A stretch of 34,868 nucleotides of DNA from positions 1 to 34,868 of the IMG/VR virus record IMGVR_UViG_3300043539_000654; one strand, written 5' to 3'. Below, in pieces: positions 1,088 through 34,868 of the stretch. This DNA is from a virus. Each line of letters starts with the position of its first letter. The stretch's first letter is position 1. The notes under the pieces were generated by a model. The model was not told the DNA's origin. It was given only the letters and a program-made list of their open reading frames with translations, and ran no database searches. A program made the position numbers and the translations under genes.

Positions 1088-1447
1088 TTATACATCAAAA
1101 GCAAAACCAACATGATCGGCTATTGCCTTGGCGGCATCGTGCCAAGAGTAGGCAACAACAAAGGTGTAGCCGTGCGGCTGCAATGCATCACGGAAGGAAA
1201 CCTGCCCCGGTGTAAGCCGACCTTTACCGGCCTTCATTTCAACGTACAGCCCCGGCGCTGGGCAAGGTAAAAAGATATCCCAAACCCCAGCAAGAACGCC
1301 CATTGCTTTGAACTTAGCAGCTGTCCTGATGTCTCGATGCCCGCCGTTAGGGCAATGGTAAATGGTTGACAGTTCCGGATGCTTGGTAGCCATCAGGCGC
1401 ACCCAAGTAATCAAGGCAATCTGTTCGCGGTCTTCAAGATGTTTCAT
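1088..1447 (-). CDS. VRR-NUC domain nuclease (left-end allele)
   Basis: A 119-residue stand-alone VRR-NUC nuclease of the PD-(D/E)XK fold. Visible catalytic pattern: D57 in GVWDIF, E70 and K72 in VEMKAGKG, and Q82 in LTPGQ. Phage VRR-NUC proteins are usually single-domain and are thought to act on branched DNA in replication or recombination. The ATG at 1447 overlaps the sigma factor stop by 14 bases, so the genes are translationally linked. It differs from the 33178-33537 allele at about 20 positions, none in the catalytic pattern. Confidence 0.88.
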   Translation of the reverse strand: MKHLEDREQIALITWVRLMATKHPELSTIYHCPNGGHRDIRTAAKFKAMGVLAGVWDIFLPCPAPGLYVEMKAGKGRLTPGQVSFRDALQPHGYTFVVAYSWHDAAKAIADHVGFAFDV

Positions 1448-2255
1448 AGATGGTCTTCAGTTCAGCAAGTGCTTTGTAGATGCGTTCTTTGACCACTGAT
1501 GGCGGTATACGATATCGACTGGCTACCATGTGAATGCTTTGAGGTACACGCCCATCAAGCCCAAGGTGTAGGGCTATCATCTGCCGGGTCTCACTATCAA
1601 GTGCGCCTAACGCTGTCATCAGGGTACCGTCTTCAGCCTCAGAAAAATACTCATCCTCGGCAGAGGCTGTAGATCCAAATATTGCAGTATCACCAAGCAC
1701 GAGTTGAGAACCCTGTACCGGGGTCTCAATGGATAGTGGTTCGATGCCTGATGCCGTGCGGCATATCTCGATGGTTTCAATGGTCATACCGCTACGTTCT
1801 GATAACTCTTCATCGGTCGGTGGTCTACGCAGCTCCATTTCCAAGATGACGTAGAACCGTTTGAGTTTGTGCCACTTCACCAAGGCGTGTTCGGCTATCC
1901 GTATGGTTCTGTATTGGTTAGATTGATAGCGTCGTAGTTTCTGATAAAGCCAAGGGTGGGCATAGGTTGAGAAACGTAAACCACGCTCAGGTTCCCACTT
2001 TTCAATAGCGCGAATCAAGCCCTCAACGCAATACTGGCAAGCATCGGTGAAGTGTTCTTTGTGCTTGATAACCTTACAGACTTCACGCACAAAAGCAAAG
2101 TTATGGCGGATCATAGCGTCAAAGCAATCATCTTTATATATGCCGTTAGCCCAACCGTAGTGAAGTAAAACCATCTCGTCGTGAGACAACAAACGCTCCG
2201 GTGCCTTATGTAAAGCCCGGAGCGTCTGCCGAATAGTACTTGGTCTGGGTGTCAA
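1434..2255 (-). CDS. Phage-encoded sigma-70 family factor (left-end allele)
   Basis: A 273-residue sigma factor. Region 2 spans roughly residues 43-113 and includes FSTYAHPWLYQKLRR, the core-binding and -10 melting segment. Region 3 covers about 120-190. Region 4, an HTH for -35 binding, covers about 212-268 with SRYRIPPSVVKERIYKAL. I chose the TTG at 2255 because it overlaps the TGA of the upstream gene (TTGA) and follows GCAGGGGG. The longer GTG start at 2297 adds 14 residues that differ between alleles (ACHTQ versus ASTAT), as expected if they are untranslated in this frame. Likely role: redirect host RNA polymerase to phage promoters. Confidence 0.9.
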   Translation of the reverse strand: MTPRPSTIRQTLRALHKAPERLLSHDEMVLLHYGWANGIYKDDCFDAMIRHNFAFVREVCKVIKHKEHFTDACQYCVEGLIRAIEKWEPERGLRFSTYAHPWLYQKLRRYQSNQYRTIRIAEHALVKWHKLKRFYVILEMELRRPPTDEELSERSGMTIETIEICRTASGIEPLSIETPVQGSQLVLGDTAIFGSTASAEDEYFSEAEDGTLMTALGALDSETRQMIALHLGLDGRVPQSIHMVASRYRIPPSVVKERIYKALAELKTIYETS

Positions 2256-2560
2256 CGAACCCCCTGCGCTTTGAGTATGGCAGGCTTGGTTTCCCACTCG
2301 TATCGTAAAGCGTCCTTAGCTGCAGCAATCATGCCAAGCAAAAGCAGGACACTTACCGCACAAATAACACCTGCCCTAATCGAATCCCTAATAGCCCGGT
2401 TACGGCTAAGGTATGCATCGCGCATAGCCTCCAGCGCGTAGTGCCGCTCCCTGAGCTTCTGGGCTTGCGCTTGCTGGTCTTGCCACTCTGCCATCCGGCA
2501 AGCCATACAAATCGAATCGTTATCCATCACATCATGCGCACAGTCGTTGCATCGTTGCAT
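2252..2560 (-). CDS. Zinc-ribbon single-pass membrane protein (left-end allele)
   Basis: A 102-residue protein with two CxxC pairs (C4/C7 and C18/C21) that look like a small zinc ribbon, a charged probable helical stretch at 24-60, and one hydrophobic segment at about 63-81 (AGVICAVSVLLLLGMIAAA). Its stop overlaps the proposed TTG start of the sigma factor, so the two are probably translationally coupled. A membrane protein with a zinc-binding cytoplasmic part next to a sigma gene suggests an anti-sigma role, but this is inference: the Cys pattern is not the classic HxxxCxxC anti-sigma motif. Confidence 0.75.
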   Translation of the reverse strand: MQRCNDCAHDVMDNDSICMACRMAEWQDQQAQAQKLRERHYALEAMRDAYLSRNRAIRDSIRAGVICAVSVLLLLGMIAAAKDALRYEWETKPAILKAQGVR

Positions 2561-2800: not shown

Positions 2801-2806
2801 GCAATC

Positions 2807-2825
2807 TATATACCATATGTATATA
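2807..2825. promoter_or_regulatory. Operator O1 at the repressor promoter
   Basis: TATATAC-CATAT-GTATATA is a perfect palindrome with 7-bp arms and a 5-bp centre. It covers the likely -10 of the leftward repressor promoter; a TTGACG at about -35 lies upstream on the minus strand with a long, roughly 19-bp spacer. It belongs to a six-member set with consensus TATA-N2-C-N5-G-N2-TATA. Confidence 0.7.
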
Positions 2826-13409: not shown

Positions 13410-13844
13410 CTACGACCAAGCGGTAGTCACGCCATTCGCTCCAAGGGTAATGGTTGCCGACTCAGTAAGCGCTTCCTCGTTAGCGATGTTGAGTCCAGTA
13501 CCAGTTACAACGCCAACAAAGGTCTTAGCGGTAAGGGTTCCAGGCGTAACTACAATCTGGCAGTAGTAACCGTCTTTGCCAAAGAAGATAGGGTTTACAA
13601 CGGAATCGACCAAGAACTCGACCTCAACGGATCCGTTAGCCTTGGTTACCTGTGCTTTGTTCTGAGCATCACAAAGTGCAGAGACATCAACGGTATTCAC
13701 CGATGAGGAAAAGCGTACCGAGCGAGCGATACAGGTATAAGTTTCAGCGGTAAAGGCTGAGGGCGTGCCGTCTTGGTATCCACCGAAAGCAACCGTGACA
13801 ACGCAGTTTTCCCCGATAAGCGCACTTGTTCTTGTAAAAGGCAT
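13410..13844 (-). CDS. Major tail tube protein
   Basis: A 144-residue beta-rich protein (VRFSSSVNTVDVSALCDAQN, VEVEFLVDSVVNPIFFGKDG, YYCQIVVTPGT) with the size and position expected of the tail tube subunit, between the tail terminator and the chaperone. Small tube proteins of this kind polymerise around the tape measure. GGAGTAAATT precedes ATG 13844. The family is not certain from sequence alone, so the call leans on synteny. Confidence 0.75.
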   Translation of the reverse strand: MPFTRTSALIGENCVVTVAFGGYQDGTPSAFTAETYTCIARSVRFSSSVNTVDVSALCDAQNKAQVTKANGSVEVEFLVDSVVNPIFFGKDGYYCQIVVTPGTLTAKTFVGVVTGTGLNIANEEALTESATITLGANGVTTAWS

Positions 13845-13853
13845 AATTTACTC

Positions 13854-14333
13854 CTACTGTTGCGTGACGAATCGGTACACCGCTGTCACTCCAAAATCTG
13901 TACGACCACCACTTTCCAAGCCGAACGTTTGAGCAGTTGATTCCCGCCGCACATAGAACCTTGGCGTGGTGCTCGAAACGTGAATATTGTCAAGTAGTGT
14001 GTCAATGCGAGACATGATGGTAGCCGAGCTTGCCATCGATACCGCACCACTTGCAGTATCCCACACGGTGATTCTGTAGGTTGGATAGGTAAAAACCCGG
14101 CTACCGCACAGCGTGTCTTGGTCTTGCCCTGCGTTACCAGCACGGTCAAAGACCACATAAGGTGTAACCGGTTGCTTGCGTGATATCGGGTCTATCTGAG
14201 GTGCTATGGTGTTATAAATTGCCATCTGGAAACCGTTAGGCTTGTTATCAGGTGCAAGCAAACCCATCAAGGTAGCATCACCTGTCAGGGTGTCGTAGAT
14301 CCACTGCTCAATCACCGCTGGTTCAAATGCCAT
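13854..14333 (-). CDS. Tail terminator / DUF3168-like tail completion protein
   Basis: A 159-residue protein whose layout fits tail terminator or tail completion proteins: an N-terminal helix with VIEQWIYDTLTGDATL, then a PYVVFDRAG strand, YRITVWDTAS, and a final TDFGVTAVYRFVTQQ. It follows the gp10-like gene and precedes the tube gene, as in HK97-like tails. The 11-mer TGTGGGATACT occurs inside this gene (14055-14065), encoding VWDT; no start codon follows directly, so it may be chance. Confidence 0.72.
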   Translation of the reverse strand: MAFEPAVIEQWIYDTLTGDATLMGLLAPDNKPNGFQMAIYNTIAPQIDPISRKQPVTPYVVFDRAGNAGQDQDTLCGSRVFTYPTYRITVWDTASGAVSMASSATIMSRIDTLLDNIHVSSTTPRFYVRRESTAQTFGLESGGRTDFGVTAVYRFVTQQ

Positions 14334-17849: not shown

Positions 17850-18211
17850 GATGTACGCTCCACCAGCCCTACGTGCTGTACCAATAATTCAGTTTGTCCA
17901 AAGTCAGTCCCGATCACATCGTAATATCGGGCATCATCGCCTACGCGGTAAACCCTGTCCTGCGGCATCACGTCAGCACCGACAGCAACAATCAGCGTCC
18001 ATTGTGCAGATGACTGGATGCCACCGCCTACGATTGATTCTGTGTCATTCTGGTTGGTTAGGCGGGCGTTGTACTCGGCAACCTTGCGCCATGTCTCAGT
18101 GACTCCACCACGGCCATCTTCGGTCAAGGTGAAGCGGTGAATCTCTACCCGGTCTTGGCACAAGTTGCGTACCATCCCGGCTTGTATGGTGGAGCGGAGA
18201 AGTGGGCTCAT
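17846..18211 (-). CDS. Head closure / head-tail joining protein
   Basis: A 121-residue protein like phage head-tail joining proteins of the SPP1 gp16/HK97 gp7 type: DRVEIHRFTLTEDGRGGVTE, then TWRKVAEYNARLT, and a closing VYRVGDDARYYDVIGTDF segment. It seals the capsid portal once DNA is packaged. It overlaps the upstream connector by four bases, and the order connector, closure, neck fits. Confidence 0.8.
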   Translation of the reverse strand: MSPLLRSTIQAGMVRNLCQDRVEIHRFTLTEDGRGGVTETWRKVAEYNARLTNQNDTESIVGGGIQSSAQWTLIVAVGADVMPQDRVYRVGDDARYYDVIGTDFGQTELLVQHVGLVERTS

Positions 18212-18705
18212 GCGAACACCATCGGTCTAAACTTGTCGGCCATCGTCAAGCAGTTCTGCATCAGTTGGGAAAGCTTGACATCTGAGGTGCCTTCTTTAGC
18301 ATCGATGTCTGCCGCTACTCTGGATGCTTTGATCAGCCATGCTTGGCGGGTTGCTGTCCTGACATCGTAACGCTCTACATTGATCGGGCCTTGGTCTACC
18401 CACATCAAGGTAGGGTCTCCCGTGCCATCTTCCAGCGTGTAGCCTCTCACGTGGTAAGGAGAGTAGACCGGGTAATCGGGTTGTGTCGTGCCTGATGTTC
18501 CAGCCACCCGGCACTCGTAGACCCTCCCATTAGGCGTTGTAGGCACCACACGGTCACCTACTGCATAAGTGGTTGCCGCTGTCCAAGTGGAGAAGCGTGA
18601 GAAGGAATCCAAGATGGAACCGATGTCCGTAGTGGACATCTGCGGGTAACTTTGAGCGGACACAAATAAGGATACTTGTGCGATTGCCTCGGCTCTGGTC
18701 ATCAT
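18208..18705 (-). CDS. Head-tail connector (gp6-like) with inserted chitin-binding-like module
   Basis: A 165-residue protein. The N-terminal helices (TRAEAIAQVSLFVSAQSYPQ, then DIGSILDSF) and C-terminal helices (ATRQAWLIKASRVAADIDAK, QLMQNCLTMADKFRP) form a gp6-like adaptor of the portal ring. In between, about 38-80 reads WTAATTYAVGDRVVP followed by GRVYECRVAGTSGTTQPDYP, the pattern of small CBM5/12-type modules. It has its own candidate promoter, TGTGGGATACT (18712-18722), 6 bases before ATG 18705, just after the capsid terminator. Confidence 0.78.
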   Translation of the reverse strand: MMTRAEAIAQVSLFVSAQSYPQMSTTDIGSILDSFSRFSTWTAATTYAVGDRVVPTTPNGRVYECRVAGTSGTTQPDYPVYSPYHVRGYTLEDGTGDPTLMWVDQGPINVERYDVRTATRQAWLIKASRVAADIDAKEGTSDVKLSQLMQNCLTMADKFRPMVFA

Positions 18706-18711
18706 GCCCTA

Positions 18712-18722
18712 AGTATCCCACA
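18712..18722 (-). promoter_or_regulatory. Candidate late promoter, leaderless start (connector)
   Basis: TGTGGGATACT followed by TAGGGC then ATG. Three copies stand 5-6 bases from a start codon. GATACT resembles a -10; no shared -35 is seen. It follows the terminator at 18744-18779, so this gene needs its own promoter. Confidence 0.55.
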
Positions 18723-18743: not shown

Positions 18744-18779
18744 AAAAGGAAAAGCCCCCGGCACGTCTGCCGAGGGCTT
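18744..18779 (-). terminator. Terminator after the capsid gene
   Basis: On the minus strand an 11-bp stem, AGCCCTCGGCA with TGCCGGGGGCT (one G-U pair, 4-base loop, plus positions 18753-18778), is followed by TTTTCCTTTT. It lies 20 bases after the capsid stop and probably sets the level of downstream late genes. Confidence 0.85.
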
Positions 18780-18797: not shown

Positions 18798-20078
18798 TTA
18801 TGTAGCTGCGGATGCTCCGACGATAAGGCTTCCCGGTACGCGGTTGGCTGCTGTTGCATCCACGTTACCAATGTCAAAAGCCTTGAACGCAAAGCGCTCC
18901 GTGGCCTTGAACGCGAGTGCGTCTTGGTTGAAGTAGTACTGGTCGGATACTTCGATGGTAACCGTACGACGATCGCCGAACGCTGTACCCATGCTCAGGT
19001 CACCAAGCAAGATATAAGGCGTGGTGGCTGCCAAGGTCTTAGCCATGTTCTGTACGAAAACGACTGGATATCCGTAAAGCATAGGCGTAGGACCGTATGC
19101 ATTTTGGATGTCCATGATGGAGTTTCCGCCGAGTGCATCAAGCAAAGGAGCGATGGCGTTGTACCAAATCTCACGATGCATGAACCACTTAGCCTGTGCA
19201 GCATAGGTCGGGAGCTTTGCGACCATGCCCTTAAGGTTAGCCAACGTAGGTGAATACGTGATGGTCTGACCGGTTGTAAAGACCTGCAAAGAAGCAATGT
19301 TAGCCTTGGTGGCGTTGCTGCTATAAACAGCATAGAGGATGCCATCAAGACCAGATGTGCTATCGACTGCGTTGTTGAAAACAACACGGTCTTCTTCCTT
19401 CGCAAGGACATAAGCCATGTCACGGGCAAGGGTTGCACCAAAGTCAATGATCGAGTCTTCTGCCAGTTCCTTAGATACCTGAGTAAGGACAGATGGTTTC
19501 TTGGCTACAAGGTTGACCTGTGCAAATGTCAGGTCGGATGCCGTGATAGCGGTATTCTCCCCCGGATAGTACACAGTGGTCGATGCCGTTGCGTTAGGAA
19601 CGTTCAATACATCAGAACTCATCGGGTAGATGCGGCAGTTCTGGCGAGCAACACCGAACTGCTCACGCAGGTAGATAAGGTCGGACGACAGTGGATCTGG
19701 AACGGTAAAACCACCAGCGGTTGTCGTGCCTTCAGACTGTGCCTTAAGGTTGGCTTTTACCCAGTCGGATGCTTTGCGGTTGCCCATGATCGAGCGTCCC
19801 CATTGACCCCATGCGTATGCTTTATAGTTCGCTTCGTCACGGGTACCAACGAATGGATTGCGTCCAATACCACCGGACTTCCAAGGCTGTTCTGCTGGTG
19901 CTTCCGTTGCTACTGGGTGGCCTTGTCCAAGTGCCTTGATTGTCTCAATGCGCTCTTCAATGCCCTTGGCTTCTGCCATCAGGCTTTTGACCTGTGCGAG
20001 GTCACCGTTACCGGAAGCGAGCTCACGGGCGGTAGCAAGCACAGATTCTTTCTGATTTTGCAATTGTGTAAGGTTCAT
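18798..20078 (-). CDS. HK97-type major capsid protein
   Basis: A 426-residue HK97-fold capsid protein. Residues 1-50 form a helical delta-like scaffolding domain (NQKESVLATARELASGNGDL and SLMAEAKGIEERIETIKAL), expected to be removed by the protease encoded upstream. The core starts around 110 with TTTAGGFTVPDPLSSDLI and contains VLTQVSKELAEDSIIDFGAT and the E-loop/P-domain pattern. The start overlaps the protease stop (ATGA). A perfect AGTTGTT/AACAACT inverted repeat sits just before the start codon. Confidence 0.93.
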   Translation of the reverse strand: MNLTQLQNQKESVLATARELASGNGDLAQVKSLMAEAKGIEERIETIKALGQGHPVATEAPAEQPWKSGGIGRNPFVGTRDEANYKAYAWGQWGRSIMGNRKASDWVKANLKAQSEGTTTAGGFTVPDPLSSDLIYLREQFGVARQNCRIYPMSSDVLNVPNATASTTVYYPGENTAITASDLTFAQVNLVAKKPSVLTQVSKELAEDSIIDFGATLARDMAYVLAKEEDRVVFNNAVDSTSGLDGILYAVYSSNATKANIASLQVFTTGQTITYSPTLANLKGMVAKLPTYAAQAKWFMHREIWYNAIAPLLDALGGNSIMDIQNAYGPTPMLYGYPVVFVQNMAKTLAATTPYILLGDLSMGTAFGDRRTVTIEVSDQYYFNQDALAFKATERFAFKAFDIGNVDATAANRVPGSLIVGASAAT

Positions 20079-21025
20079 AGTTGTTGTAACAACTCCAAGC
20101 GTGCCAGTATGTCGGCTCGCTCATCAATATCATGGGCTTTCGCCTCGACTACGATGACCGGGTTTACTTCTGGTTGGTCTGCATCCCGCAGAGATTCCCA
20201 ACACTCAGGAGCAAGTCGCTTTGCAGCTGACCGGCTAAGACCGACTGCATCCCGCAGCCGACGTTCAACACCCCGCAGTGAAGCGGGTTGTACGCTCTTC
20301 ATACCGTGCATGGCATATAGCCCTTTGGCACGTCGAGCAAATTCGTCAATGATGGCATCCGCCATGGTCTGATCTGATACCGCTTCGATGGCTCCACAAA
20401 GCGCATCGTAGTAGGCTTCTAGCCCTTCGTGGATAAGGTCACCTTCGGCATCATCGTATACCGACATTGCGTACTCTTCCGGGGACTGCTCAGGCATTGG
20501 AGCCATGACCATCTCTTCTTCTTCTATCATAGGCTCCATGCCGTAGTACTCCTTTAGGCTTTTGACGCTGTTACGATACTCGGCTGGTGTCGGTGTGATG
20601 CTTGCCTCAGCGATAGGCCACCGGGTGATTTCAGAAACATCACCCATGCTTTTCCGTTCTACCAAGTGTGCAGCTGCACCAGATGAAAAACCCATCTTGC
20701 CTTGCTTACATAACTTGGCAATCATCGAGCCGTACTCGTCGGCTAGATCTAACTGTGCCTCGTACCATAGCCCGGTGTCGTCCATCTTGATGTAGCCAGT
20801 ACCGATGCTCTTCTTCCCAACCTGTGCATCCATGCCGTGGTGATAGTAAACGTTAAGCGGTACGCGCTTGCCTTCGCTCATTGGGAAACCGTAGTCGGTT
20901 GACTTAGTGAAATAATCACCCTCAAGGTCAGCCGTCTTGGTATCGCCAAAGCGCACCAGATAGCCCTTGACGTAACCAAGCCGGTCACTCTTGATATTGT
21001 CTACGGTAGAAGTCAGCACGTCCAT
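20075..21025 (-). CDS. HK97-family prohead protease
   Basis: A 316-residue maturation protease. The S78-type fold is visible: GYVKGYLVRFGD at the start, the catalytic His in YYHHG (about residue 64), the Ser in MGFSSGAAAH (about 111) and the EASITPTPAEYRN strand. The C-terminal acidic, helical part (about 160-310) may act as scaffold. I choose ATG 21025 (MDVLTS), because TGTGGGATACT lies 6 bases upstream as it does at the portal and connector genes; the upstream GTG at 21043 would place translation through that motif. It should cleave the capsid delta domain. Confidence 0.88.
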   Translation of the reverse strand: MDVLTSTVDNIKSDRLGYVKGYLVRFGDTKTADLEGDYFTKSTDYGFPMSEGKRVPLNVYYHHGMDAQVGKKSIGTGYIKMDDTGLWYEAQLDLADEYGSMIAKLCKQGKMGFSSGAAAHLVERKSMGDVSEITRWPIAEASITPTPAEYRNSVKSLKEYYGMEPMIEEEEMVMAPMPEQSPEEYAMSVYDDAEGDLIHEGLEAYYDALCGAIEAVSDQTMADAIIDEFARRAKGLYAMHGMKSVQPASLRGVERRLRDAVGLSRSAAKRLAPECWESLRDADQPEVNPVIVVEAKAHDIDERADILARLELLQQL

Positions 21026-21031
21026 GGTGTA

Positions 21032-21042
21032 AGTATCCCACA
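21032..21042 (-). promoter_or_regulatory. Candidate late promoter, leaderless start (protease)
   Basis: Second copy of TGTGGGATACT, followed by TACACC then ATG 21025. It stands just after the minor head protein stop codon. Confidence 0.5.
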
Positions 21043-21050
21043 CGGTCCTT

Positions 21051-22196
21051 TTATTCGAATGTCGTTAGATCCGGTTCGTATCCCTCTAGGTCTCTAAGCG
21101 GTAGAACCCTAGTGGTTGGTCCCCAGTCTGCATTCTGAACCACGGTTGCCATATCACTGAGCGGCAACCCTTCTGCGTAAAGTGCATAACGTGATTTGCC
21201 AAGTATTTGTTGAGCCTCGATAGCGGTTAGCCCACGCAAGATATCTTCACCGGTGACCGGCTTAGGTCGTGTATCAGGGATGCTACTATCCCCGGTAATC
21301 TCTGCCCATGACAAAGTTACCGGAATCATCACGCACCGACAGTTCGGATGGCTTGGCATAATCTCATCGGTGGTTGATAGCGTTCCGGACAGAGCCAAAC
21401 ACGCAAGGCAAACCCTGCTGTCCTGCGTTGCTTGGCGTCGGTATCCGGTAACCGCTGGGTTCTGCGTGTAGAGTTGTCGTTGTGCTTCACGGGCACTTCG
21501 GATCATCTCAGTACGTGCTATCGTCTCTGCTCGGTAGCGTCCAATGTCTGCCGCCTTACGTACCCGCCGTGCTACCGTACGTGGTCCTTCACCCAACGAG
21601 ATACCCTGCACCAAAGCCATCTGCATGGCATCAGTGGTCACCTGCGGTATGGTCGCAAATAACTCACCCAAAGGGCTTCCATCACCCGCCATGCCGACAA
21701 AGGCTTGGAGCTGTTCGTCTGGTAGGTTTGTCCATGAACTTCCGAGGCTAACACCTGCCGGTTTACGACCTGCCGCCGCTTCAACCATGCCGACGCTCGC
21801 CTCATTCGCAAGGATTGCTGCTTCGAGTTGTCCATCTGCTGTAATGGTTGCCCCCTCGATACTAAACTTTTTGAGATTCCTACCTAACTCTTCTATGTTG
21901 TCTATGATGCGTTGACGCATCCAGAGTATGGTGTCGGACGGGTCTTCACCGTTATCTAGCCGTTCTTGGATACGATCCTCTAACGCTTCCAGCTCATCGA
22001 TGCTTGCCTTGGTTGCCGCCTTGTATGCGCGTTGCATACGGCTGATGGCTACACCTTCACGCTCCAAAAGTTCATTACGAAACTTTTGACTGGCTGCATA
22101 GATACGAGCACTGTCCGTGTTTACTCTTTTGAGATGGTTTCCATCTCGTACCCGTAAAAAGGGTGAGACTTGTACACTACCCCCGGAGTGCAGCAA
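21051..22196 (-). CDS. Minor head protein, SPP1 gp7 / Mu gpF family
   Basis: A 381-residue head morphogenesis protein. The family signature lies at about 225-300: ARTEMIRSAREAQRQLYTQN, then the Cys/His cluster CLACLALSGT and SHPNCRCVMIPVTLSW. Members bind the portal and are injected or stay inside the head. The first possible start is TTG 22196, 76 bases inside the portal gene and without a good ribosome site, so the true start is uncertain. Confidence 0.82.
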   Translation of the reverse strand: MLHSGGSVQVSPFLRVRDGNHLKRVNTDSARIYAASQKFRNELLEREGVAISRMQRAYKAATKASIDELEALEDRIQERLDNGEDPSDTILWMRQRIIDNIEELGRNLKKFSIEGATITADGQLEAAILANEASVGMVEAAAGRKPAGVSLGSSWTNLPDEQLQAFVGMAGDGSPLGELFATIPQVTTDAMQMALVQGISLGEGPRTVARRVRKAADIGRYRAETIARTEMIRSAREAQRQLYTQNPAVTGYRRQATQDSRVCLACLALSGTLSTTDEIMPSHPNCRCVMIPVTLSWAEITGDSSIPDTRPKPVTGEDILRGLTAIEAQQILGKSRYALYAEGLPLSDMATVVQNADWGPTTRVLPLRDLEGYEPDLTTFE

Positions 22197-23848
22197 TCGA
22201 GGCTCTTACCGTCAGGTTGCATAGCGTTACGTTTGGATGTAGACCAGCGGAACCCGGCATCACCGCCCCACAAGTCCCAAGCAACCCTACCGGGTGAAGG
22301 GAAGCCATCTTCACCAGCGTTGAAGCCTTCCGCCTTCTTGTCTACCTCATGACGTGAAAAGAAACTGTACATCCGGAGGATAGTATCCTCGCTCAGTTTC
22401 TCACCATTCACAATCTGGTTAGCCCTTGCAAGGCCTACGCGCGTGCCGCCATCAAAGCCTTCTGCTTTCCAGTCAAGCGCCCGTTGTGCTGCTGTACGCA
22501 TTGCTTCGGTTGGTCGGAACTTTACATCGTAAGACCGAACGGCTGCACCTTCAAAGCCACCGCCGCTTTGTACGGGTATAGCCGTTGGGTGTAGCTGCCC
22601 TTCGTCTTCGGGCACGGCTTCTAACCCTGCTATGCGCTTGGCTTCAGCACGATCAATAATGCCAGCCTTGTACAGCCGTTCTGCACGTTCCGCTTCAGCT
22701 GCAAGGTCATCAGCCAACGCCCGTACGGTTTCAAGGTCGTACTGAATGAAGTCACCCTCTTGGGTTTCTGGATACTCCGGCAGCAGGTCAGCAGTGATTG
22801 CATCGGCAAGGGTGCGGAGCAGAGGAACCATGCCATCTTCCCATGCCGCTTGTTGCGCCCTCTCATAATTACTGTAAGTAGACCGCTCTAGGCCGCTTCC
22901 AAGGCCTAAGACCATAGGGTTGATGCCAAGGGCGGAACAGATACGCTCCTCAGGTACACGCCTAACGGAATCCAAAGCAAGCTCGGACGGTGTAAGACTA
23001 ACACGGTCAAGTTTGTACGCACCGGTCATAACCACGATGCCACCTGAACCGTCCCCGGTAAGGTCTTCGTGCAGTTGTCTTTTGACCTGCCGGGCATCAT
23101 CGATGCTAATGTCTACGGTCTGGTCTTTTGCATCAGGCCCGACAATAAGCGATGGCATAGCACCGTTAGCCAGCAAGCCGTAAGCGGTTGTGCTGGCTGT
23201 ATTGTCGGTAGCAATCTCACGTAGTACAGCCATGACTGGAGACCTACCCAAGCGGATATCTTGCGGGTCCCGGTTGTACCTTATGTGGATGATGTCTGAA
23301 ACGGGAATGTCAAAAGAACGACCATCAGTGGTGTAGACGTAATGGGTTAGCGGGTTCGTACCATTACCAACCGGGCGAACCATGTCCTGCGGCAAGAACT
23401 GTAAAGCCGTGACTACACCACGGGTCGTAGATCGAATCTTTCTCAGGTACGTGTTGCCAAACAATTTATAATCTTGAATGACCCAGCCCCAAAATAGAGA
23501 CCCCATAATCATTGGGTCTGGTTGAGCCATGAGCTTGATAACTGGATGGTCTTCTACCGGCTCTGCTTGCTGGCTGTCTACCGGTCTGTAGTACTTTGGT
23601 GTGGCTTGTGGGTAGTTCCTTACGTACCAATCAATGGCAGATGCAACAACCCCATTCAGCCCAAGGTCACCGGCTATGCGTGACCAGTCTTTTGTTGAGC
23701 CGGGTAACGCACGACGTAGCAATGTCTGCAGCTGACCTGAGCCGTACCCGGTAAGGTAGATGTCCCGTGACTGACTCAATGGCAGCGGGAGTGCTTGTGT
23801 CGGGTTGGCTGCGGCTTTGCGTCCGAGGAATCGATCAAATATACCCAT
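22121..23848 (-). CDS. HK97-family portal protein with C-terminal extra domain
   Basis: A 575-residue portal. The core (about 40-420) has GVVASAIDWYVRN, LFWGWVIQDYKLFGNTYLRK, QFLPQDMVRPV and SDIIHIRYNRDPQDIRLGRS, the HK97 portal pattern. Residues about 435-550 form an extra module (KFRPTEAMRTAAQRALDWKA, RVGLARANQIVNGEKLSEDT, YSFFSRHEVDKKAEGF, SPGRVAWDLWGGDAG) that I have seen as a free-standing or fused domain in other phage proteins, with no known function to me. ATG 23848 is 5 bases after the TGTGGGATACT motif, directly after a terminator. Confidence 0.9.
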   Translation of the reverse strand: MGIFDRFLGRKAAANPTQALPLPLSQSRDIYLTGYGSGQLQTLLRRALPGSTKDWSRIAGDLGLNGVVASAIDWYVRNYPQATPKYYRPVDSQQAEPVEDHPVIKLMAQPDPMIMGSLFWGWVIQDYKLFGNTYLRKIRSTTRGVVTALQFLPQDMVRPVGNGTNPLTHYVYTTDGRSFDIPVSDIIHIRYNRDPQDIRLGRSPVMAVLREIATDNTASTTAYGLLANGAMPSLIVGPDAKDQTVDISIDDARQVKRQLHEDLTGDGSGGIVVMTGAYKLDRVSLTPSELALDSVRRVPEERICSALGINPMVLGLGSGLERSTYSNYERAQQAAWEDGMVPLLRTLADAITADLLPEYPETQEGDFIQYDLETVRALADDLAAEAERAERLYKAGIIDRAEAKRIAGLEAVPEDEGQLHPTAIPVQSGGGFEGAAVRSYDVKFRPTEAMRTAAQRALDWKAEGFDGGTRVGLARANQIVNGEKLSEDTILRMYSFFSRHEVDKKAEGFNAGEDGFPSPGRVAWDLWGGDAGFRWSTSKRNAMQPDGKSLDCCTPGVVYKSHPFYGYEMETISKE

Positions 23849-23853
23849 GCCCT

Positions 23854-23864
23854 AGTATCCCACA
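23854..23864 (-). promoter_or_regulatory. Candidate late promoter, leaderless start (portal)
   Basis: TGTGGGATACT followed by AGGGC then ATG. It lies between the terminator at 23870-23891 and the portal start, so the late head genes most likely begin transcription here. Confidence 0.6.
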
Positions 23865-23869
23865 GAAAC

Positions 23870-23891
23870 AAAAAAGCCCCCTTGCGGGGGC
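23870..23891 (-). terminator. Terminator after the 94-aa gene
   Basis: On the minus strand GCCCCC-GCAA-GGGGGC is followed by TTTTTT. It separates the 23908 gene from the portal. Confidence 0.9.
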
Positions 23892-23907
23892 CTGTAGGTT
23901 TTTATGC

Positions 23908-24192
23908 TTAAAGTGCTGCAATGATTTCACGGGCCATCTTTGCCCACTCAGCATCTAGTGTAGTTACTACTTCGCCGGTAATAACATTTACATAAAGAAA
24001 TGCATTAATGATGCGTCCAGCCTTCGAGTTGCTGATTCGCTCGCCGTTCAATGTGACGTTACGCAATGAGCCGGTTTTGTAGCATTCAACTTCAAGACCA
24101 AGAATGTGTTGAGGTTTGAAGTAAACTCGGTGATTCGTTCCACCCGTCCACTCCTTGCCGCCTGCCTCAACCAACCGTGTAATAAGTTCCAT
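23908..24192 (-). CDS. Hypothetical protein, 94 aa, own promoter/operator/terminator
   Basis: Start ATG 24192 (MELITRLVEAGGKEW) is set by GGAGATAGAACA just upstream; a longer in-frame reading would translate the promoter. No family is recognised. The middle (VECYKTGSLRNVTLNGERIS) is beta-like and the end helical (DAEWAKMAREIIAAL). It is a one-gene unit with its own operator-bearing promoter (O4) and terminator, lying between terminase and portal, as accessory moron genes do. A repressible promoter suggests expression is tied to the early programme. Confidence 0.7.
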   Translation of the reverse strand: MELITRLVEAGGKEWTGGTNHRVYFKPQHILGLEVECYKTGSLRNVTLNGERISNSKAGRIINAFLYVNVITGEVVTTLDAEWAKMAREIIAAL

Positions 24193-24216
24193 TGTTCTAT
24201 CTCCTTGCTTGATGTC

Positions 24217-24251
24217 TATAATATACACTGTTAGTATATATACTGGAAGAA
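24217..24251 (-). promoter_or_regulatory. Promoter with operator O4
   Basis: Operator copy TATACAC-TGTTA-GTATATA (24222-24240, one mismatch between arms) overlaps a minus-strand -10 (TATATT or TATTAT). TTCCAG stands 17 bp further upstream where a -35 would be; the -35 is weak. Confidence 0.62.
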
Positions 24252-24259
24252 TATAAGTA

Positions 24260-24301: not shown

Positions 24302-24574
24302 TTAGTCTCTGGTGATGTACTGAGTATCTACATCAAGTCCGAGTGCGTGATACTTAGCGATGATGGCTTTCGATTCTTCGTTGAGTCCACCAGCAACGTT
24401 GGACTGAAAGCCTACACTGCTTGTGTAGATATAGCGGCGGTAGCTGTTGCGGCCGTACTGAGCATAACCATCAAATACTGAGTTGATGTCTGCGGCATCG
24501 ATGCCGGCTTTCTTAAGGTCTGTCTTGCGTGTGCTTGAAACCTTAATAACGTAAAAGTCGAAGTAATTTTCCAT
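24302..24574 (-). CDS. Hypothetical protein, 90 aa, own promoter/operator/terminator
   Basis: Start ATG 24574 (MENYFDFYVIKVSSTRKTDL) follows GGGAGATAGAACA, almost the same leader as at 24192. A longer in-frame reading would cover the promoter. The protein is Tyr-rich (FDGYAQYGRNSYRRYIYTSS) and otherwise unrecognised. It is a separate small unit under operator O5. Unrelated proteins in near-identical expression cassettes suggest swappable accessory genes. Confidence 0.7.
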   Translation of the reverse strand: MENYFDFYVIKVSSTRKTDLKKAGIDAADINSVFDGYAQYGRNSYRRYIYTSSVGFQSNVAGGLNEESKAIIAKYHALGLDVDTQYITRD

Positions 24575-24598
24575 TGTTCTATCTCCCTGCTCGATGTA

Positions 24599-24633
24599 GA
24601 TAATATACACCGTTAGTGTATATATTGGAAGAA
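24599..24633 (-). promoter_or_regulatory. Promoter with operator O5
   Basis: Perfect operator TATACAC-CGTTA-GTGTATA (24604-24622) overlaps the minus-strand -10 (TATATT); TTCCAA is 17 bp upstream. Confidence 0.66.
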
Positions 24634-24648
24634 TATAGGAAATATATT

Positions 24649-30901: not shown

Positions 30902-32214
30902 TACCGCTTGTAATACCGCTTGCTACGGCACTCAATCAGCTGTAATTCCATTGCCTCATCAATGGTTTCCCAAACCAGATTTCTATTCTTCTTCAGCCCA
31001 TCACAGATACCACTTTTGGTCTTGCCGGGGTTGTCTGCCACATACTGAGCAACCCGATCTAATACCTCCGTTTCACTTCCAGCCGTTGTGATTTGCTGTA
31101 GTGCTATCTGCCCCGGTTCATCGGTGTTGAGCCTGTACACAAAGTGGACCCAGTCATCCTCCCCAATGTGCCTGTGTTTGACCGTACGCACGTCATACGT
31201 CTTGGCTTCGATGTCGTGGTTGATAGACAACACCATGTCGGCCTGTGCAGCCAAATCAGAGGCCCCACGCATGGTGTCCTGAGTGATAGCCGTTCCCGGT
31301 GCTAATTTTTTATTATGGTGAAGAATCACAACCGCAGCCCCTGCATCAATCAGTTCTTGAAACCGGTCATAGAGTTTGGCAACCGCGCCATTGTCGTTTT
31401 CATCCATGCCATGCACACGAACAAAAGTATCAACAACCACTAGCTGGATGTCATTATCTTTGATGTACTTCACGAGCGCGTCAACGTGGTACCGCTTGTC
31501 TACCTTGGTATTCTTTTTTTGGATGATATGAAGGTTTGGCAGGTCGGTGTTGTGCATCATGCAGAACCGCCCCCAGAACTGCTTTAGGTTTATTTCCTCA
31601 TTGATGTACAGCACCTTAGCCGGGGTTGTCTCAATGAAGTTGCACCATGGTCTACCTGAAGCGCAAGCAATCGCAAGGTCAATACCAAGCCACGATTTAC
31701 CTGATCCGGATGCGGCAGCAATAAAGTGTAGCCCTTTGTGGATAACCATATTCTCAGCTATCCATTCTTGCTCTGGGCAGTTTTGCCCCTCTTCCTTGAA
31801 GCGCCACCAGTTCCAAATCTCAAGCTCGACTTCCGGTACAACCTTCACCGCCAACTCTTCCCGTAGCATGGCAGGGGTTAACGGTGGTAGGTCGGAATCT
31901 TTCCAGTCTGCCCACGCCCTAGCAACCTTTTCGGTTACCTCGTGTTCTTCCATTGGCGGATCACAATAGGTGCGGTTCCAATCCAAGATGCCAGAAAGTG
32001 CAAAATTGATATGTAGCCGTGTGCTCCTGTAGTACCCCACGCAAGCCGTTAGAGCATTGTCCCGCCCACCGTAAGGGCCGCCCCCTTCAGGGTGCCGTTG
32101 TAATAACTTCTTTAGCGTTCCATCATCGGAATCACTGCCGGTGTACTCGCCACGCTCTGCCCGTGGCTTACGCTTTGGAGTAGCGTCCAGCTCATCAAAC
32201 CATTCATCACCCAA
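30901..32214 (-). CDS. PriCT-domain primase-helicase (RecA-like ATPase)
   Basis: A 437-residue protein. Residues about 32-110 form a PriCT-type primase C-terminal domain (GRDNALTACVGYYRS, then YCDPPMEEHEVTEKVARAWA). A RecA-type ATPase follows: Walker A AASGSGKS (167-174) and Walker B LVVVDTF (258-264), with VVILHHNKK and MRGASDLAAQADMV further on, as in RepA/AAA_25 hexameric helicases. It overlaps the primase gene by 8 bases, so primase and helicase are two proteins made from adjacent frames. The TTG start (32214) follows GAGG. It unwinds DNA at the replication fork. Confidence 0.88.
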   Translation of the reverse strand: MGDEWFDELDATPKRKPRAERGEYTGSDSDDGTLKKLLQRHPEGGGPYGGRDNALTACVGYYRSTRLHINFALSGILDWNRTYCDPPMEEHEVTEKVARAWADWKDSDLPPLTPAMLREELAVKVVPEVELEIWNWWRFKEEGQNCPEQEWIAENMVIHKGLHFIAAASGSGKSWLGIDLAIACASGRPWCNFIETTPAKVLYINEEINLKQFWGRFCMMHNTDLPNLHIIQKKNTKVDKRYHVDALVKYIKDNDIQLVVVDTFVRVHGMDENDNGAVAKLYDRFQELIDAGAAVVILHHNKKLAPGTAITQDTMRGASDLAAQADMVLSINHDIEAKTYDVRTVKHRHIGEDDWVHFVYRLNTDEPGQIALQQITTAGSETEVLDRVAQYVADNPGKTKSGICDGLKKNRNLVWETIDEAMELQLIECRSKRYYKR

Positions 32215-33073
32215 AGTAATACCTCATTATCTCCGGCAGGTCTGCTCGGACGATATCTAATCTATATCTCCATCGCTCGTCAGCTTCAAACACCTGACAC
32301 GCTTCCAATGCTTCGATGAAGAACACATCTAGCGAGTCGGTTATCCTACCGCTTGCGTGATGTATACGTGGCTCTGACTTGCCAAGTTGTCCCTGTAGTG
32401 CGGAAGCCAACAAAGCATCTAAACGTTGATCACCGAGGTGTCGAACCAACAATGATTCCTTGTACGTTGGCCGCATCAAGCCACCCTTCAGTAATACGAC
32501 TGGCTTCGGGTTGCTTTGATCTTTCCAATTTAGCGTGCCGGGGATACGTAGGATGCGATCAAGGTTAGATACATTATCAGTACCGGGTAAAACCTTGTCT
32601 GCAAAGTCTCGTATGCGACCTTCCATTGCTGAACGTTCTCGTGTTGATCCGCAAGCCTTTGAGGAAGATAGAACCTTGTAGCCATGCCAACCATTGCCCG
32701 TATGAACCACGATGTCGCAGCCGTCGAGTAAACCTTGACTACTGCCGGGTACTTTAGAATCAAGGTCAATCCAAACTGCACCTACCTGCTCTATAGAATC
32801 CTTGCCCAGCTTACGTCCCGGTCCTTCAGGTGCAGCACGGGGACATACCCCGCAGTAGACATCGTAACCACGAATGGCTAGGCTGATGATGTGTTGGGTT
32901 AGCGCTTGACCTTCTTCACCTCGCAGACAATAAGGCAGTCTGTAAGTGGTTCGGTTAGCGTGGGGCTTGACCTTAGATAAAGGTCTGATTTCAATGAACC
33001 CGTCTTGATAGGGTTTGAATAGATGCCGCAGGAAGGCGATCGCCATCCCGGCATCCGTGGCTGGTATAGCCAT
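32207..33073 (-). CDS. AEP/RepB-type DNA primase (right-end allele)
   Basis: The 288-residue allele of the primase. D103 and D105 in WIDLD, GNGWHGY (126-132) and DRILRIPGTLNWK (172-184) mark the primase core. It is one residue shorter than the left-end copy (SKVPG-SSQ versus SKVPGASSQ). ATG 33073 follows the structured leader. The unchanged C-terminus (LPEIMRYYFG) overlaps the helicase start, which constrains it. Confidence 0.87.
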   Translation of the reverse strand: MAIPATDAGMAIAFLRHLFKPYQDGFIEIRPLSKVKPHANRTTYRLPYCLRGEEGQALTQHIISLAIRGYDVYCGVCPRAAPEGPGRKLGKDSIEQVGAVWIDLDSKVPGSSQGLLDGCDIVVHTGNGWHGYKVLSSSKACGSTRERSAMEGRIRDFADKVLPGTDNVSNLDRILRIPGTLNWKDQSNPKPVVLLKGGLMRPTYKESLLVRHLGDQRLDALLASALQGQLGKSEPRIHHASGRITDSLDVFFIEALEACQVFEADERWRYRLDIVRADLPEIMRYYFG

Positions 33074-33079
33074 GGGTGT

Positions 33080-33169
33080 AACCTGTTGTCCTTAGAGATA
33101 CCTGCTACTGGTAACCCTTCGGTAGCTACTCCGAAGGGTGGACAAGGTCCATAACCAGAAGGACAGGTT
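33080..33169 (-). promoter_or_regulatory. Structured RNA leader of the primase gene (allele 2)
   Basis: Same nested design as 991-1079. The central stem is ACCCTTCGG (33114-33122) with CCGAAGGGT (33131-33139). The base pair C-G of allele 1 is T-A here, a two-sided change that keeps the pair. The loop sequence and length differ (TAGCTACT versus GGATCAG). CTGGT (33108-33112) pairs with ACCAG (33154-33158), and AACCTG/TCCTT (33080-33093) with AAGGACAGGTT (33159-33169). Confidence 0.65.
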
Positions 33170-33177
33170 CAGCAACA

Positions 33178-33537
33178 TTATACATCGAAAGTAAAACCCA
33201 CGTAATCGGCTATCAACTTGGCTGCATCTGTCCACGAATATGCAATCCGGAAGGTGTAGCCATACGGCATCAAGGCATCTCTAAAAGCCACTTGCCCCGG
33301 TGTCAGCCTACCTTTTCCAGCCTTCATCTCGATGTAAAGCCCGGGCGCCGGGCAAGGTAGAAAGATGTCCCAAACACCCGGTTTGACACCCATGGCTTTG
33401 AACTTTGCAGCTGAACGAGGGTCACGATAGCCACCGTTAGGGCAATGGTAGATACTTGCAAGCTCAGGATGTTTTGACTGCATCAGACGTACCCAAGTAA
33501 TCAAGGCTATCTGCTCGCGGTCTTCAAGATGTTTCAT
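33178..33537 (-). CDS. VRR-NUC domain nuclease (right-end allele)
   Basis: The 119-residue allele of the 1088-1447 nuclease, with the same catalytic pattern (GVWDIF, IEMKAGKG, LTPGQ). About 20 substitutions, many in the C-terminal third (for example FRIAYSWTDAAKLIADYV versus FVVAYSWHDAAKAIADHV). It overlaps the sigma gene stop by 14 bases. Confidence 0.87.
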   Translation of the reverse strand: MKHLEDREQIALITWVRLMQSKHPELASIYHCPNGGYRDPRSAAKFKAMGVKPGVWDIFLPCPAPGLYIEMKAGKGRLTPGQVAFRDALMPYGYTFRIAYSWTDAAKLIADYVGFTFDV

Positions 33538-34345
33538 ATATGGTTCTCATTTCGGCTAGTGCTTTGTAGATGCGCTCTTTGACCACTGATGGCGGTATAC
33601 GGTATCGACTGGCTACCATGTGAATGCTTTGCGGTACACGTCCATCAAGCCCAAGGTGCAGGGCTATCATCTGCCGGGTCTCATCATCCAGTACGCCTAA
33701 CGCTGTCATCAGGGTACCGTCTTCAGCTTCAGAAAAATACTCATCCTCGGCAGATGCTGTAGATCCAAAGATAGCAGTATCACCAAGTACCAGTTGAGAA
33801 CCCTGTACCGGGGTCTCAATAGATACCGGCTCGATGCCTGATGCCGTGCGGCATATCTCGATGGTTTCAATGGTCATACCAGAGCGTTCTGATAACTCGT
33901 CATCGGTCGGTGGTCTGCGCAGCTCCATTTCCAAGATGACGTAGAACCGTTTGAGTTTGTGCCACTTGACCAGTGCGTGTTCGGCTATCCGGATGGTTCG
34001 GTATTGGTTAGATTGATATCGTCTAAGTTTCTGATATAGCCAAGGGTGAGCATAGGTTGAGAAACGTAAGCCACGCTCAGGCTCCCACTTTTCGATGGCA
34101 CGAATCAAGCCCTCAACGCAGTACTGGCAAGCATCCGTGAAGTGTTCTTTGTGTTTGATAACCTTACAGACTTCACGAACGAAAGCAAAGTTATGGCGGA
34201 TCATAGCGTCAAAGCAATTATCTTTATAAATGCCATTCGACCAGCCGTAGTGCAGTAAGACCATCTCATCATGAGATAACAAACGCTCCGGCGCCTTATG
34301 TAAAGCCCGGAGCGTCTGTCGAATAGTACTTGGTCTGGGTATCAA
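33524..34345 (-). CDS. Phage-encoded sigma-70 family factor (right-end allele)
   Basis: The 273-residue allele of the 1434-2255 sigma factor. Regions 2, 3 and 4 are conserved; substitutions are conservative (DD to DN, ALDSE to VLDDE, ELK to EMR). The TTG start at 34345 overlaps the stop of the zinc-ribbon gene exactly as in the other allele, while the 14 codons further upstream diverge, which supports this start over the GTG at 34387. Confidence 0.9.
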   Translation of the reverse strand: MIPRPSTIRQTLRALHKAPERLLSHDEMVLLHYGWSNGIYKDNCFDAMIRHNFAFVREVCKVIKHKEHFTDACQYCVEGLIRAIEKWEPERGLRFSTYAHPWLYQKLRRYQSNQYRTIRIAEHALVKWHKLKRFYVILEMELRRPPTDDELSERSGMTIETIEICRTASGIEPVSIETPVQGSQLVLGDTAIFGSTASAEDEYFSEAEDGTLMTALGVLDDETRQMIALHLGLDGRVPQSIHMVASRYRIPPSVVKERIYKALAEMRTIYETS

Positions 34346-34650
34346 CGAACCCCCTGCGCTCGTAGCAGTGCTGGCTTGGTTTCCCACTCGTATCGTAAAG
34401 CGTCCTTAGCTGCAGCAATCATGCCAAGCAAAAGCAGGACACTTACCGCACAAATAACACCTGCCCGAATAGAATCTCTTACCGCACGGTTACGGCTCAG
34501 GTAGGCTGTCCTGTGGGATTCCAAGGCATAAGCCTTCTCACGAGCCTGCCGGGTTTGCTCCTGCTGGTCTTGCCACTCTGCCATCCGGCAAGCCATACAA
34601 ATCGAATCATTATCCATAACATCATGCGCACAGTCGTTGCATCGTTGCAT
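34342..34650 (-). CDS. Zinc-ribbon single-pass membrane protein (right-end allele)
   Basis: The 102-residue allele of the 2252-2560 gene. All four Cys and the membrane segment are unchanged; differences are concentrated at residues about 31-49, in the charged linker (EQTRQAREKAYALESHR versus AQAQKLRERHYALEAMR). Conserved ends with a variable linker fit a protein whose binding head and membrane anchor matter most. Confidence 0.75.
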   Translation of the reverse strand: MQRCNDCAHDVMDNDSICMACRMAEWQDQQEQTRQAREKAYALESHRTAYLSRNRAVRDSIRAGVICAVSVLLLLGMIAAAKDALRYEWETKPALLRAQGVR

Positions 34651-34668
34651 CGTCTTTTCTCCCTAACC

Positions 34669-34868
34669 TTAGTTGTCAAACGTCTCTGTTTCTACAGTCG
34701 GCTTGATCCGACTCTTACGGCGAATAGTCAAGAGCCTTGCCAAGTCTTCTTCCGCCATGTCCATGGCTTCAGCGAGCTTGGTGAGGTTGCTTGCCTGTGG
34801 TGTCTTTTTACCAGCCATCCAGTCGGATACTTGCGGCTGGGTTGCACCAATGCGTCTTGCCAGCTCCT
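34669..34868 (-). CDS. XRE-family repressor (partial, right-end allele)
   Basis: The last 66 codons of the repressor, cut by the window end; its start and operator would lie to the right. The one amino-acid change seen is in the tail (TIETET to TVETET). The recognition helix is unchanged, so both alleles should bind the same operators. Confidence 0.85.
   Translation of the reverse strand, partial: ELARRIGATQPQVSDWMAGKKTPQASNLTKLAEAMDMAEEDLARLLTIRRKSRIKPTVETETFDN

Follow-up and report, generated by a model that had tools for sequence, protein, structure and literature searches.

Extended -10 promoters work without a -35 element, and the late promoters of phage T4 have only a -10. In the phages SPO1 (gp28, gp33/gp34) and T4 (gp55), sigma factors encoded by the phage redirect host RNA polymerase to the late structural genes. 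Extended -10 elements, which have been reviewed (PMC2613000), take the form TRTGn with sigma A in Gram-positive bacteria and TGn in E. coli. Leaderless genes are described in Actinobacteria and Deinococcus-Thermus as TA-led genes, and their reported mark is a -10-like signal whose first base lies about 12 nt before the start codon (PMC3160421). The late promoters of phiKZ-type phages, as quoted in PMC5312081, consist of TATG with the G as the start of the RNA.

Three of these known kinds, extended -10 promoters, phage-sigma late promoters and leaderless genes, are each matched in part by the 11-mer TGTGGGATACT, which stands in front of head genes in a family of uncultured phages. Like the TRTGn promoters, it has a TGTG, one base, a hexamer and no -35, but it carries G rather than T at -12 and C or G at -8, it is nearly absolutely invariant, and it is fused to the start codon. 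As in SPO1 and T4, a phage sigma is proposed to redirect host RNA polymerase to late structural genes; unlike those sigmas, the factor here is a full region 2-4 protein of a phage of about 32 kb, its motif is different, and the head messages are predicted to be leaderless. The spacing recalls that of TA-led genes, in which the -10 also lies about 12 nt before the start codon, whereas here a single class of phage genes stands beside early genes led by Shine-Dalgarno (SD) sites, with a different hexamer and probably a different sigma. As far as the quoted description goes, the phiKZ type offers a parallel in being a late promoter class of its own with a very short core at the RNA start, but those promoters are read by a multisubunit phage RNA polymerase and not by a sigma70-family factor. 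A literature search for the motif returned no match in a relevant context, and none was found that combines leaderless messages, late genes and a phage sigma beyond the work on giant phages. This combination, a -12 base that is G, and the way the element is joined to the start codon set it apart as a new variant.

The window, by which we mean the whole stretch of 34,868 nucleotides that was analysed, holds four exact copies of the 11-mer, all on the minus strand, which is the coding strand. Chance expectation for that strand is 0.009 copies from base composition and 0.011 from a first-order Markov model. The first-pass annotation had seen the 11-mer 5-6 bases before the ATG of three head genes, twice just behind a strong terminator and far more often than chance would allow, and all of this is confirmed, with four copies seen against about 0.01 expected and spacers of 5, 6 and 6 nt. 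The first candidate late promoter, at 23854-23864, precedes the ATG (A at 23848) of the portal gene (22121-23848, PHROG 2662/12) by 5 nt; for the second, at 21032-21042, the gap is 6 nt to the start codon (A at 21025) of the gene for the prohead protease (20075-21025, Peptidase_S78, Pfam PF04586); and the third, at 18712-18722, has a gap of 6 nt as well, to the start codon of the connector-position gene (18208-18705; A at 18705). This last gene takes its name from its position adjoining the head-completion protein gene, which comes after it, and its PHROGs matches are weak (head decoration or unknown). The major capsid protein (MCP) gene (18798-20078, PHROG 10) overlaps the end of the protease gene and has no motif of its own. 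The strong intrinsic terminators lie at 23874-23893, directly 5' of the first copy, and at 18752-18779, directly 5' of the third. The fourth copy, at 14055-14065, is internal to a tail-region ORF (13854-14333) whose function is assigned by position only, and there it codes for VWDT. All of these features are on the minus strand.

The early genes are organized differently. As had been claimed in the first reading, the rightward early genes have GGGAGATAA-type leaders of the SD kind, unlike the head genes, and they follow a canonical TTGACA-16-TATAAT promoter on the plus strand (2842-2869), which matches at 12 of 12 positions. Three further observations concern this part of the genome and the ends of the contig. 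In the stretch 2801-2817 (minus strand), a small helix-turn-helix-like gene with its ATG at 2800 is preceded at 6 nt by TATGGTATATA, and a host-type extended -10 may make the message of this early gene leaderless as well. Two small genes share a near-identical upstream region of about 60 nt (TATATTCTTCCARTATATAYACTAACRGTGTATATTAT..GGAGATAGAACAATG; 24192-24255 and 24574-24637, minus strand), which is perhaps a duplicated early promoter and leader. The window ends, 1-2778 and 32092-34868, overlap at 84% identity and not at 100%, so the contig seems to run through one turn of a genome of about 32 kb and then into a related but different genome.

In IMG/VR, the capsid protein brought up 178 relatives, of which 80 loci were kept, and the sigma protein 38; the motif played no part in the choice, and the starts of portal, protease and connector were placed by protein alignment. 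Absence of the motif from relatives with the same head genes had been named as the outcome that would speak against the first reading; it is instead present at 194 of 194 start sites, 128 times exactly and 66 times as TGTGGGATAGT. The sole variation is at position 10 (-8), which is C or G, and the other ten positions are fixed: all 50 portal sites are exact, the 66 protease sites divide into 34 exact and 32 with the C->G change, and the 78 connector sites into 44 and 34. The flanks, by contrast, are free, in that the 30 nt upstream comprise 27, 28 and 19 distinct sequences for portal, protease and connector, and the spacers have many different sequences although none is shorter than 5 or longer than 6 nt. 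Across the loci chosen by MCP, the sense strand has 123 exact copies and the opposite strand 0. Full-length records have exactly four copies, in the same four places (portal, protease, connector and tail ORF), and in them the motif is confined to structural genes. It is retained in members whose capsid proteins are 58-79% identical, also where MCP identity falls to 58-62%, and in two members whose sigma is 34-35% identical; of these two, one shows TGTGGGATAAT before its portal gene.

Megablast of the late region against phage records gave no match, indicating that there is no cultured close relative; among the best matches listed, portal proteins of cultured phages reach about 30% identity or lower; and a prophage search of bacterial and archaeal genomes, with the portal and an MCP alignment, found none. 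Viral contigs were also scanned for the DNA pattern of the motif followed by an ATG; this served only to find extra family members among the matches listed, and those outside the phage family, in short or unrelated ORFs, look like chance. Some records are unusual in structure. In one of 62434 bases (L086, G002) a pair of related genomes lies head to tail; their sigma genes differ in subtype, the motif is present eight times, and the contig is either a strain-joining assembly artefact or a true tandem. In two others (L085, G001, and L104, G016) the portal and protease copies are about 4.1-4.4 kb apart rather than 2.8 kb, which suggests an extra gene between them in some relatives.

The 11-mer is real and functional, and it is very likely a promoter. 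The earlier proposal took GATACT as a -10 with transcription starting at or near the ATG, and the fixed gap of 5-6 nt and the base before the ATG both favour it. If the A of the ATG is +1, then with a 6-nt gap GATACT falls at -12 to -7 and TGTG at -17 to -14, the place of the extended -10 in TRTGn promoters. TG, one base and a hexamer with A at -11 and T at -7 are invariant in the 194 sites. The T at -12 of the extended -10 class is missing, however, and G stands there in every copy, so that the element is a variant of the extended -10 promoter and not a plain member of the class. That no common -35 is visible, as first reported, holds across the family: none was found in the 30 nt upstream in 45 non-redundant sequences (one from an unrelated contig), with at most 0.5 bit at any position. 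The 11-mer would thus be the full promoter core, TGTG at -17 to -14, G at -13 and GATA(C/G)T at -12 to -7, working without a -35.

From the same spacing we infer an RNA start at the A. Where the gap is 6 nt, a pyrimidine (C or T) precedes the ATG at 253 of 253 sites of the family, compared with 10 of 26 control genes (other genes in the window), and an invariant pyrimidine at -1 is what is expected for RNA starting at the A of the ATG; among 5-nt sites there is one listed exception (L134), which seems to be a chance match in an unrelated contig. The hexamer begins 12 nt before the ATG at 6-nt sites and 11 nt before it at 5-nt sites. No SD site lies at a working distance, because with spacers of 5-6 nt any GGAG there abuts the ATG. 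For the portal gene, the predicted RNA start is 23848, give or take 1 nt. In these three genes (portal, protease and connector), then, the element would be fused to the gene start, with the A of the ATG as the first transcribed base, and the promoter likely makes leaderless head messages. That it acts late we infer from the genes it serves.

The first-pass annotation had also raised the phage's own sigma as a possible factor. The window encodes a sigma-70-family factor of 287 aa with regions 2 to 4 (33524-34387, minus strand; PHROG 351, E=8e-30), with Pfam Sigma70_r2 above its cut-off and r3 just below, and residues 58-281 align to SigA from region 2 through region 4. A second copy of the gene, with 13 residues different, lies at the other window end (1434-2297, minus strand). 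The listed ORF starts at GTG 34387; in several homologues a stop falls inside the matched stretch, probably among its first residues (34340-34387), so that the gene may really begin about 15 codons downstream. A sigma gene was found in 35 of 48 records searched, the rest being mostly short fragments. In subtype A, the window type, the base at -8 is C, at the protease and connector sites found, in 17 of 17 records; in subtype B, whose sigma is 43% identical to the window type, G occurs at one or both of the protease and connector sites in 5 of 5 records (G054 being counted as subtype B from a sigma fragment), and in 0 of the 17 of subtype A; these G records fall at three or more points of the capsid tree. 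This association would arise once in 26,334 if the 22 records were independent, which they are not; the capsid tree gives three independent contrasts, all concordant, for which the floor of a sign test is 0.25. In a larger capsid tree the letter at -8 changes at least 7 times. In these records the G variant is seen with subtype B and never with A, a covariation that, on three contrasts, points to the phage sigma as the likely reader, and the residues expected to contact the motif add to the case. Suppressor genetics showed that Gln437 and Thr440 read -12 (PMC2613000); in region 2.4 of the phage sigma, Gln437 is kept and Arg takes the position of Thr440 of SigA/RpoD, and this Arg is found in subtype A, subtype B and the 34-35% group, in all of which the base at -12 is always G. 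As a unique marker, Arg at 440 is weakened by the cyanophage sigma S-N03, which has it too, and it is thus not diagnostic of G at -12. E458, which helps sigma70 to read TG, is Val in the phage sigma. Taken together, the covariation and the residue arguments make it likely that RNA polymerase with the phage's own sigma reads the 11-mer.

The strongest competing explanation is that the main sigma of the host reads the same promoter, still with leaderless messages, as an ordinary extended -10, the phage sigma having some other role. TGTG, G and GATACT follow one another as extended -10 promoters in general would have it, A standing at -11 and T at -7. Two very distant phages (MCP 37-38% identical over a short stretch) have TGTGGTATAAT instead; looking for a sigma gene in them gave none, and in one of them part of the copies have TTGACA upstream and SD leaders. 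A distant record (L328, G062) has seven copies of TGTGGTATAAT, two of them after TTGACA and before AGAAGGAGGG leaders, and TGTGGTATAAT looks like a host version of the element. Against this explanation, the invariant G at -12 is not a sigma70 preference, the early genes of the same phage have TTGACA-TATAAT, and the allowed base at -8 tracks the sigma subtype. We consider host reading of the 11-mer unlikely, and the phage sigma remains the preferred reader.

A different function for the motif must also be weighed, as the operator of a phage regulator or as an RNA-processing signal that gives leaderless ends by cleavage. Such a motif could be just as long, invariant and directional, and cleavage could also yield ends at the ATG. 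The surroundings of the head genes do not favour it. RNA folding of the three upstream regions shows both terminators, and strong terminators just upstream would starve a processing site; at the portal there is hardly any space for a second promoter between terminator and ATG, and no separate promoter fits there. The tolerance at -8 alone and the -1 pyrimidine also suit a promoter better, and we regard the operator or processing function as very improbable. Pairing of the 11-mer with the terminator flanks was considered at the portal and rejected, the fold being weaker and the flank sequence involved not conserved. For a promoter, the terminators before the first and third copies would shield the late units from upstream transcription.

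The fourth copy had been noted as lying inside a coding region, and it does, but the notion of a stray match fails, as it is strongly conserved at the DNA level. The codons GTG TGG GAT ACT are present in 33 of 33 distinct homologues, down to 54% amino-acid identity, and a 34th (L322) has AGT, the same C->G change as at other sites, which turns Thr into Ser. Of the 56 degenerate codon columns whose amino acid never varies, only 3 keep to a single codon, and these are the motif's three; codon choice would single them out by chance once in 27,720. The longest invariant nucleotide run of the ORF (34 homologues) is 10 nt and lies in the motif, the next being 3, and no other part of the ORF shows clear constraint on its DNA. 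This copy is therefore not accidental and is functional too, and no start codon is conserved among the homologues 5-6 nt after it, which argues against a translation signal and for a promoter. Least probable of all is a translation-initiation or enhancer element in the mRNA, which would account for the fixed distance to the ATG, where an SD site would sit, but not for a fourth copy kept at the DNA level without a start codon, for ordinary GGAG sites at other genes of the phage, for two copies right after terminators, or for an 11-mer that presumably does not match the complement of the 16S 3' end.

As a promoter, the tail ORF site is predicted to start RNA near 14048; the message would carry a leader of about 204 nt, with an SD site for the next tail gene, at ATG 13844. 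This gene (13410-13844, minus strand) occupies the major tail protein position; no family match was found for its product. It has an AGGAG, which is kept in most relatives, and in the most distant ones (L265-L268) the tail gene lacks a clear SD. A functional fourth copy with a leadered tail transcript means that the late messages would not all be leaderless.

Overall, we think it probable, on the strength of comparative sequence evidence, that the 11-mer is a -10-only late promoter specific to the phage sigma, from which three head transcripts would start without a leader and one tail transcript with a leader. A bolder idea, possible but doubtful, is that the whole late programme runs from exactly four copies of one -10-only promoter read by the phage's own sigma, and that the sigma switch also moves the head genes to leaderless translation late in infection. 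Leaderless messages are unusual as a phage's standard plan for late genes. Should the main reading be true, a widespread family of uncultured phages would have its late promoter defined to the single base, together with a named sigma that likely reads it and a one-letter covariation supplied by nature, and a single genome would offer a clean natural example of leaderless capsid-gene messages beside SD-led early genes. The near-absolute conservation of the 11-mer also makes it a simple marker for these phages in metagenomes.
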